64,000 bases of DNA from Sphingomonadales bacterium Ga0077557. Its GTDB lineage: Bacteria; Pseudomonadota; Alphaproteobacteria; Sphingomonadales; Sphingomonadaceae. The notes under the pieces are model-generated. The model worked only from the letters and a program-made list of their open reading frames with translations, was not told the origin of the DNA and ran no database searches. The position numbers were made by a program, and so were the translations under genes. This document shows, piece after piece, positions 20,829 to 39,015 of the stretch (positions are counted from its first letter, which is position 1; each line of letters opens with the position of its first letter). The DNA is taken from contig LNFI01000008.1 in the NCBI GenBank assembly GCA_001464615.1, positions 186,001 through 250,000 on the forward strand, given 5' to 3'.

Positions 20829-20898
20829 CCGTTCGCCCTGAGCGAAGTCGAAGGGCATGCGGAGCACGTGGGCTTCGACTTCGCTCAGCCCGAACGGG
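20829..20898. repeat. sphingomonad-type dispersed palindromic element
   Basis: ccgttcgccctgagcgaagtcgaagggc ... gggcttcgacttcgctcagcccgaacggg inverted arms. Confidence 0.85.
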
Positions 20899-36000: not shown

Positions 36001-36370
36001 CGATCGCTTCGGCATCCGCGCCGATCATCTCGACGCCGAATTCCGCCAGCGTGCCGTCGTTGAACAAAGCGAGCGCGGTGTTGAGCGCGGTCTGCCCACC
36101 CATCGTGGGGAGCACTGCATCGGGCCGCTCCTTGATGATGATTTTCCGCACGATCTCGGGCGTGATCGGCTCGACATAGGTGGCGTCCGCCAGCTCGGGA
36201 TCGGTCATGATCGTGGCGGGATTCGAATTGACGAGGATGATCCGGTAGCCATCCTCCTTCAACGCCTTGATCGCCTGCGTGCCGGAGTAATCAAACTCGC
36301 ACGCCTGGCCGATGACAATGGGCCCCGCGCCGATGACGAGGATGGAGGAGATGTCGGTGCGCTTAGGCAT
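33011..36370 (-). CDS. carB: carbamoyl-phosphate synthase large subunit
   Basis: [57 protein letters not shown]; two ATP-grasp halves; start trimmed from 36529. Confidence 0.97.
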
Positions 36371-36419
36371 TGACGGCAATGCTTTCATTGAATACATTGA
36401 TTGCAAAAGGAGATCGGCT

Positions 36420-36809
36420 TTGGCGACGCTTACGGTCCGCAATATCCCCGACGAGGCCAAGCATCGTTTCCGCCAGGTGGCGGCGGCGCATGGCAGGTCG
36501 ATGGAGGAGCATCTCCGCACGCTGGTCATCGAGGCTGATTTCGGCGACGCTCGCGTAAGCCATGTTGCCGAAGCAGCACCGACATTTGGTCATCAGCCAT
36601 CCGGAGAGGAAATTGTGCGCGCGTTGATCGAGGCGGCAAATGGTAAAGGTGACGACCTGTTCGACGGCGTGCTCGACCGCCGGAAATATGCCGACATCCG
36701 ATATCTGACCGCTAAGGATGCGATGGCCGAATTGCGTCGGCTCGCGAACGGGGCAAGCCTGGACTTGCCACCGCGCCTGAATCCGACCCTCGAGGCGCCG
36801 GACTTTTGA
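36420..36809 (+). CDS. FitA/VapB-like antitoxin (probable TTG start)
   Basis: [36 protein letters not shown] ribbon-helix-helix; AGGAG about 8 nt before TTG 36420. Confidence 0.82.
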
Positions 36810-37219
36810 TCCTTGTCGACACCAACGTCTGGAGCGAACTGACCAAGCCAGCCGGCGACCCTGCCGTGCTGGCTTGGTTAGAAGCCCATGACGATGACCT
36901 GGCGCTGTCGGTGCTGGTGGTAGCGGAAATCCAGTACGGTATCGCGCTGCCAGCGGCGGCGCGGAAGCGCCCGTTTCTCGAACCATGGCTGGAGGGATTG
37001 CGTAGCCGCTATTATCACCACACGCTGCCGTTCGGGGATGACGACGCTGATTGCTACGGCCGGATCGCAGCCCACCCGCAAGTGAAAGCGCGCCAGCCGC
37101 AAGTGATCGACATGCTGATCGCGGCGCAGGCGCAATATCGGTCGATTCCGGTTGCCACGCGGAACGTGAGGGATTTTGAATGGACCGGGGTTGAGCTGAT
37201 CGATCCCTGGGCCACTTAG
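36806..37219 (+). CDS. FitB/VapC-like PIN domain toxin
   Basis: [52 protein letters not shown]; 4-nt overlap with antitoxin. Confidence 0.92.
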   Translation: MILVDTNVWSELTKPAGDPAVLAWLEAHDDDLALSVLVVAEIQYGIALPAAARKRPFLEPWLEGLRSRYYHHTLPFGDDDADCYGRIAAHPQVKARQPQVIDMLIAAQAQYRSIPVATRNVRDFEWTGVELIDPWAT

Positions 37220-37315: not shown

Positions 37316-37759
37316 TCATGGCGTCAACCGCGCCACCAGCGCCAGCACAGCGAGCACCGCCACGCCCCAGCGAAGCCAGCGCACGCCACCCCGCGCACCG
37401 AGCGGATCAACCGGCATGACGCGCGAGCGGCGAACAGATGAATCGTGCGTAGGCGGGAAGGCACCCAGTCCCGTGCCGCCTCGAGGATCGATTGCGAGGA
37501 TGTTCTCCCCGCCATGATGCCCCGGCAGAGGGACGGCGGTGGCCAAGCCCGGACGATAGGTGACGTCGCCAGATCCGGGTGTCGCCACCAGGCGCAGTAC
37601 CCCTTCGGCTTCAATCGGCCCACCCAGCGCCGCTTCCCCGCCATCAATGCTGCGCAATAACTGCACCTGCGCCAAACGCGCCGTGGCAGTGGGCGCGCCA
37701 TGCCCAGCGGCAAGCGAGCGCGGCTGACCGGCCCTTAGTGGCGCGCTCGGCGCGGTCAC
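37316..37759 (-). CDS. hypothetical protein with C-terminal TM anchor
   Basis: WGVAVLAVLALVARL C-terminus; 4-nt overlap with carA stop. Confidence 0.55.
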   Translation of the reverse strand: MTAPSAPLRAGQPRSLAAGHGAPTATARLAQVQLLRSIDGGEAALGGPIEAEGVLRLVATPGSGDVTYRPGLATAVPLPGHHGGENILAIDPRGGTGLGAFPPTHDSSVRRSRVMPVDPLGARGGVRWLRWGVAVLAVLALVARLTP

Positions 37760-39015
37760 GCGGCACGCTCGCGGATCATCCCCACAAACCGCTCAAACAG
37801 ATACAAGCTGTCCTGCGGCCCCGGGCTAGCCTCGGGGTGGTACTGCACCGAGAACGCCCGCCCGTCTTCCAGCTCGATCCCTGCATTGCTGCCGTCGAAC
37901 AGCGACACGTGCGTTTCGCGCACGCCTGCGGGCAGCGAGTCCCGTTCCACCGCGAAGCCGTGGTTCATGCTGGTAATCTCGACCGCGCCGTCGCTCAGCC
38001 GCTTGACCGGGTGGTTGGCGCCGCGATGGCCCTGGAACATCTTGGTCGTCTGCCCGCCGACCGCGAGCGCGAGCAGCTGGTGGCCGAGGCAAATGCCGAA
38101 CAGCGGGAGTTTCGTGTCCAGCAGCTGGCGGATCACCGGCACGGCGTAGTCGCCGGTCGCGGCGGGGTCGCCGGGGCCGTTGGAGAGGAAGATGCCGTCG
38201 GGGGCGAGTGCCATCACCTGATCGAATGTTGCGGTCGCGGGGAGGACCGAGACGCGCGCGCCGGCGGCGACGAGGTTGCGGTAGATGTTGCGCTTGGCGC
38301 CGTAATCGATCGCGACGACATGGGGGCGGTGCGCTTGCCCTTCGACTGCGCTCAGGGCGAACGGCTGTAGTTGAAGACCCAGCCCCTCCCCGTTCGTGCT
38401 GAGCGAAGTCGAAGCACCGTCGCCATACCCCTGCCCCAGCCGCCACACGCCGCCTTCCCAGCCGAAATGCGTTTGCGTGGTGACATCGATGGCGAGGTCC
38501 ATGCCCTCGAGCCCCGGCCAGCCCTGCGCCTGGGCCAGCAGCGCGGGGATATCGAACTTGCCGTCCGCCGCATGCGCAATCACCCCGTTGGGTGCCCCGC
38601 CCGAGCGGATGCGGCGGGTGAGTGCGCGGGTGTCAATGCCCGACAGGCCGATGCGGTTATGCTTCTTCATCCACACATCCAGCGGCTCGACCGCGCGGAA
38701 ATTGCTAGGCGCGGTAACGTCTTCGCGCACGATCATGCCGAGCGCATGGGGATCGTCGGCCTCGATATCATCGGCATTGGCGCCGACATTGCCGATATGC
38801 GGAAAGGTAAAGGTGATGATCTGCCCGGCAAAACTCGGATCAGTCATGATCTCCTGATAGCCGGTCATCGCGGTGTGAAAGCAGACCTCGCCCACCGCCG
38901 CGCCCTCCGCGCCAAAGCCCCGCCCCCACGCGATTTCGCCATTGGCGAGCACCAGAACGCCGGTGGCTCCTTCAGGCGCAGCGCTGGACGCACGTAGGGG
39001 CTTGGCGTCGGCCAT
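37756..39015 (-). CDS. carA: carbamoyl-phosphate synthase small subunit
   Basis: TGYQEIMTDPSFAGQIITFTFPHIGN, LFGICLGHQLLALAVGG, SVQYHPEASPGPQDS; start trimmed from 39090. Confidence 0.96.
   Translation of the reverse strand: MADAKPLRASSAAPEGATGVLVLANGEIAWGRGFGAEGAAVGEVCFHTAMTGYQEIMTDPSFAGQIITFTFPHIGNVGANADDIEADDPHALGMIVREDVTAPSNFRAVEPLDVWMKKHNRIGLSGIDTRALTRRIRSGGAPNGVIAHAADGKFDIPALLAQAQGWPGLEGMDLAIDVTTQTHFGWEGGVWRLGQGYGDGASTSLSTNGEGLGLQLQPFALSAVEGQAHRPHVVAIDYGAKRNIYRNLVAAGARVSVLPATATFDQVMALAPDGIFLSNGPGDPAATGDYAVPVIRQLLDTKLPLFGICLGHQLLALAVGGQTTKMFQGHRGANHPVKRLSDGAVEITSMNHGFAVERDSLPAGVRETHVSLFDGSNAGIELEDGRAFSVQYHPEASPGPQDSLYLFERFVGMIRERAA
38336..38417. repeat. palindromic dispersed element inside the carA reading frame
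   Basis: gcccttcgactgcgctcagggcgaacgg ... ccgttcgtgctgagcgaagtcgaagcac; same family as 20829..20898. Confidence 0.85.

Follow-up and report, generated by a model that had tools for sequence, protein, structure and literature searches.

In-frame palindromic repeats in the CarA interdomain linker of a sphingomonad, a recurrent landing site for several unrelated repeat families

We analysed a 64,000-nucleotide stretch of contig LNFI01000008.1 from Sphingomonadales bacterium Ga0077557 (GCA_001464615.1), hereafter the window. The window contains carA, whose product scored 417 bits against TIGR01368, above the NCBIfam equivalog cut-off of 307. The gene gave a single match in its own genome, and no second copy was found there. 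The carB and carA genes are separated by an opposite-strand gene pair (36312-37219) encoding a FitA-like antitoxin (PF22513) and a PIN-domain toxin (PF01850). Between the regions encoding the two Pfam domains of CarA, the carA frame crosses an element composed of two inverted 28-bp arms and a 25-bp spacer. The frame is stop-free across the element and reads GASTSLSTNGEGLGLQLQPFALSAVEGQ, between WRLGQGY and RPHVVAIDYG. A sequence-only reading had placed inverted arms at 38336-38417 within an intact carA frame; the arms and the frame were as described, and the start was one base too early (Table 1). The predicted RNA fold of the element (z = -4.9) surpassed those of all 200 shuffled sequences. 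A search of the window against Rfam returned two tRNAs and nothing else.

Table 1. Features of the carA locus and of the related intergenic repeat pair (window coordinates)
Feature	Position	Strand	Support
carA; CarA, small (glutaminase) subunit of carbamoyl-phosphate synthase, 419 aa; ATG at 39015, stop at 37756	37756..39015	minus	TIGR01368, PF00988 + PF00117
In-frame REP pair, tags inward; 81 bp = 27 codons; interdomain linker, ~residues 200-227	38337..38417	minus	
Arm 1: GCCCT-TCGACTGCGCTC-AGGGC stem-loop + GAACGG tag; minus-strand translation PFALSAVEG	38337..38364	plus	stem covariation
Spacer between tags, 25 bp	38365..38389		
Arm 2: GTGCT-TCGACTTCGCTC-AGCAC stem-loop + GAACGG tag; translation ASTSLSTNG	38390..38417	minus	stem covariation
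Intergenic pair of the same REP family, tags outward (usual arrangement in own genome)	20829..20897		

The element belongs to a dispersed family, each arm of which consists of a stem-loop and a GAACGG tag (CCGTTC/GAACGG). The arm pattern had four matches in the window, where shuffles predicted 0.01, and 101 matches at up to two mismatches in the whole genome (3.57 Mb), where a reversed control pattern gave none. These controls ruled out a chance similarity of the carA arms and confirmed that the segment is unusually repeated in the genome. Across 89 copies, Watson-Crick pairs occupied 439 of the 445 stem cells, compared with 346 +/- 8 when arm sides were shuffled among copies, and the stem types GCCCT/AGGGC, GGGCT/AGCCC, GGCCT/AGGCC, and GTGCT/AGCAC interchanged. 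The family is thus a REP-type repeat: a short imperfect palindrome with compensatory stem changes and a high copy number, occurring singly or as inverted dimers and, according to a codon-model scan, intergenic at nearly all places.

The census identified three non-intergenic pairs in the genome, located in carA, in the gene for an acyl-CoA carboxylase alpha subunit, and in an open frame that connects a GIY-YIG protein with TrmJ. The GAACGG tags lie inside the carA pair and outside the pair at 20829-20897, so that the two elements, correctly recognized by the sequence-only reading as kin, differ in the mutual polarity of their arms. All of the approximately 29 outward-tag pairs in the genome were intergenic, whereas all three inward-tag pairs lay in open frames (Fisher's exact test, 2e-4 with all three pairs and 6e-3 without the TrmJ fusion). 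Among sampled relatives, counted without carA of preselected genomes and without four inward-rich genomes, 12 of 20 inward pairs and 4 of 45 outward pairs were coding (p = 3e-5; 2e-4 to 2e-3 under stricter counts). Because the comparison is post hoc and based on first-listed places, and because outward pairs occur in some CarA genes of other genera (L198, L201, and L203), the preference for inward tags in genes represents a bias rather than a rule. In four Sphingomonas genomes (G025, G052, G065, and G068), inward-tag pairs were common (8-39), whereas outward pairs dominate elsewhere; the sampled ones were intergenic. Outward and inward pairs correspond to the HH and TT arrangements of Di Nocera et al. 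(2013; PMC3733652), whose main passages describe HH as predominant and TT as rare among CGTC REPs.

Comparison with orthologs supported the proposal that the element was inserted in the linker preceding the glutaminase domain. Most linkers in Sphingomonas and other Alphaproteobacteria were palindrome-free and comprised approximately 9-22 residues, many of them 9-13, and the E. coli CarA linker has approximately 11 (its residues 182-192). These short-linker relatives lacked the residues encoded by the window element. Filled linkers had 31-76 residues as against 9-22 in empty ones, making the length distribution bimodal. Among the 168 distinct CarA proteins, 103 linkers were empty, 32 carried the window's family (F1), 28 carried F2, two carried F3, two carried F4, and one carried an unassigned insert. 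F1 reads STSLxTNG...PFVxSEVE, with a variant RPSTSSGRTG...VRAEPVEA. F2 has arms CCCCTCCC...GGGAGGGG and reads SPLPLAGGAGGG...TPNPLPQAGGG. F3, which starts with CGTCAT, has arms CGTCATCCCAGC and reads SSQRKLGSQ...PDFRQDD, and F4 has arms CCCTCTCCCC and reads SPLQGRG...LSPEGER. The F2 arms were dispersed repeats in all eight genomes tested, with 10-144 copies in each and 0-1 matches for the control. Elsewhere in CarA, no extra stretch of six or more residues was found apart from the termini and one loop of 6-10 residues. Inserts were also present in single-contig genomes (e.g., G010, G021, and G033), which ruled out an assembly artifact. Two further arrangements were observed in this linker: a REP nested within another REP with the frame kept (L050), and three tandem CGTC-type repeats forming a 76-residue stretch in Sphingomonas soli (L102).

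To place these inserts on a phylogeny, we used a tree of the 168 CarA proteins computed without the linker, on which change counts combine gains and losses. The filled or empty state required 32 changes (30 in a set reduced by six doubtful rows), and at least 17 changes were forced by well-supported branches; in this reduced set, F1 alone required 25 changes and F2 alone required 14. The window carA (F1) and L174 (F2) formed a sister pair (support 98) whose flanks were identical and whose repeats differed, and comparable pairs were L039/L178, L186/L187, and L204/L206. In this set, the CarA linker is therefore a site at which palindromic repeats of at least four unrelated families have landed repeatedly. 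Within the genus, at least 39 of the 148 genomes with a CarA match had a filled linker (39 of the 70 whose sequences were examined; the other genomes mostly looked empty by hit geometry). Because matches outside the genus were ordered by similarity to a query that carries the insert, they give no estimate of the filled share in other genera.

Next, we focused on the reading frame of the inserts. Each of the 33 TCGAC cores present in the F1 linkers of CarA lay in the same phase and read Ser-Thr; neither the Arg-rich frame (LRLRSGRT) nor the FDFAQGER frame was used by any of them. Among 177 CarA open reading frames, only L175 was frame-broken, and L174 and L176 ended at contig edges. In L175 (G083), the frame of an F1-bearing carA breaks downstream of the linker, reflecting either an assembly error or a broken gene. 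As the frame is kept in a single-copy gene, we infer that the insert is translated into CarA, and the insert-bearing enzyme is presumably normally active. Excision of the element from the mRNA, or its bypass by ribosomes, would yield an insert-free protein, and long hairpins would juxtapose the flanks. Neither process would need inserts that stay in frame and free of stops in nearly all of the 177 genes, or an F1 family held to a single frame. These properties count against both, and we consider either process extremely improbable.

The linker evolves under relaxed constraint. Of five filled clades, four gave linker pN/pS values within 0.5-0.8 (0.53-0.68), as against 0.05-0.12 in the flanks of these clades; in the fifth, a pair of sequences, the ratio is undefined because the linker contained no synonymous change. 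Empty linkers were relaxed as well (0.3-0.8). Synonymous divergence of the insert relative to its flanks was lower in two or three clades and higher in others, and a conserved RNA structure was not supported as a reading of the insert because this synonymous constraint was inconsistent across clades; selection may act on the hairpin as well. One insert contained an 8-residue indel (L067), and another had a decayed arm (L043). Structural prediction of the window CarA with AlphaFold2 from a 39-sequence alignment gave a mean pLDDT of 76, with values below 50 at residues 201-226, and the model matched the E. coli protein (1cs0 chain B) with a TM of 0.82 by query. The insert is thus predicted to be disordered. 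Together with the relaxed pN/pS, the indel and the decayed arm fit a tolerated, nearly neutral spacer.

Alternatively, the insert might have been recruited, with an mRNA hairpin slowing ribosomes so that the N-terminal domain folds first, or with a longer linker tuning the coupling of glutaminase and synthase. The hairpins are located exactly at the domain boundary, the linker RNAs fold with high stability (-72 to -143 kcal/mol), and the insert has been retained indel-free across a clade of several species. Against this, 103 of the 168 CarA genes are insert-free, families, lengths, and both arm orders are interchangeable, and pN/pS is relaxed. The clade differences in synonymous constraint, the indel, and the decayed arm argue in the same direction, and recruitment therefore appears quite unlikely.

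Repeats of these families also occurred within other genes. The F1 pair in the acyl-CoA carboxylase alpha subunit (PCC_BT domain; G000 C28:114244-116445) lies in frame, and the corresponding loop (RYNPP...RVDDGV) was a second recurrent site for several repeat families (L228, L300-L324). This loop carried F1 in both arm orders (own genome; L317 and L320), F2 (L316 and L323), and SSPRRRGSI...LDPRLRGDD repeats (L310 and L313). In-frame F1 pairs were also found in leuS (two genomes, same region), uvrA (two genomes), ileS, valS, and rnr. In L237 (1894-3129), as well as in L256, L257, and L262, a REP pair bridges the GIY-YIG gene and trmJ within a single open frame and has an Arg-rich reading; the repeat may have created a fusion protein, or it may be intergenic and open by happenstance.

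Many insertions by several families at one place, with recurrent sites elsewhere such as the carboxylase loop, could also indicate that the linker DNA is a sequence-specific hotspot for the mobilizing enzyme, beyond selective tolerance. A single target rule common to different families is unlikely, the insert boundaries vary inside the linker, and the other recurrent sites are loops too. Moreover, the REP-associated tyrosine transposase (RAYT, PF01797) was not detected in the own draft genome, where it may have been present in the past, and occurred in 16 of 151 genomes of the genus. A hotspot of this kind is highly improbable.

Based on these data, we propose that the carA element is very probably an in-frame REP insertion, filtered by selection and tolerated as a floppy translated linker. 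REP pairs would spread through the action of a trans-supplied enzyme and insert at any position; PMC3733652 states that a dedicated transposase is also lacking for CGTC REPs. A dispersed pair would have entered the codons of the short, poorly conserved linker between the N-terminal and glutaminase domains of CarA. Selection would purge carA insertions that break the frame, add a stop, or hit elsewhere in this essential gene, whereas in-frame, stop-free insertions in the linker would persist as a translated, disordered, and nearly neutral loop of approximately 27 residues. The same filter would allow unrelated repeat families to land, decay, and be replaced at the linker repeatedly in Sphingomonadaceae. 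It is unlikely that the linker is instead an actively used pad, at which hairpins are replaced since a translation pause or a longer linker is useful, or that the inward-tag pair is a form with preferential insertion into genes.

The proposed insertion resembles several known systems. The intragenic REPs of the GTAG and CGTC superfamilies (Di Nocera et al., 2013; PMC3733652) are, as presented in the main passages of that study, short palindromes that occur singly or as dimers in frame within genes. Those passages include cases in sphingomonads, in aminoacyl-tRNA synthetases, and in repair genes such as uvrA, propose flexible linkers as tolerated sites, and report recB hit at approximately the same site in two Xanthomonas. 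The window family ends in CCGTTC/GAACGG and lacks the unpaired GTAG or CGTC tag of those superfamilies, whereas the F3 insert is similar to CGTC REPs, a group in which the same source places RPE-4 and RPE-6. Rickettsia palindromic elements (RPEs) are also translated in frame within many conserved proteins (PMC2229807, PMC10969869), and an insert-bearing Rickettsia Gmk is made and active (PMC2229807). The carA insert likewise is an in-frame, stop-free insertion in a conserved protein gene, and the parallel drawn by the sequence-only reading holds as an analogy: RPEs are 105-146 bp long and occur in Rickettsia, whereas here short REP pairs of several families occupy one linker in free-living bacteria, a likeness rather than membership. 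Finally, MITE-type elements such as ERIC and Correia/NEMIS are small non-autonomous repeats that form in-frame fusions (PMC10969869, PMC2229807). In contrast, neither a target duplication nor classical transposon ends were demonstrated for the carA insert, the nearest empty linkers being too diverged to show exact junctions or a target site duplication.

In-frame intragenic REPs in other genes and species, and the idea of linker tolerance, have thus been described, as the main passages of PMC3733652 indicate. Those passages do not mention carA, the acyl-CoA carboxylase gene, convergence of multiple families, strict frame, or polarity bias. Our literature search, which covered the main passages of that study, found no report of carA with palindromic repeats, and on sphingomonad intragenic REPs it found only PMC3733652 and reviews. 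The convergent multi-family site, the strict choice of frame, and the arm-polarity bias in genes appear to be undescribed. The repeated hits by several families, the presence of such sites in other genes, and the opposite polarity of the carA and intergenic copies extend the sequence-only reading.

These inserts constitute a natural experiment, in which dozens of related enzymes have gained unrelated peptides at one joint, making the cost or use of selfish DNA turned into protein directly measurable. They mark repeat-accepting loops in several genes, including carA, the acyl-CoA carboxylase alpha gene, leuS, and uvrA, and explain odd low-complexity peptides of annotated proteins. They also offer a route to testing the movement of REP pairs without an evident transposase.
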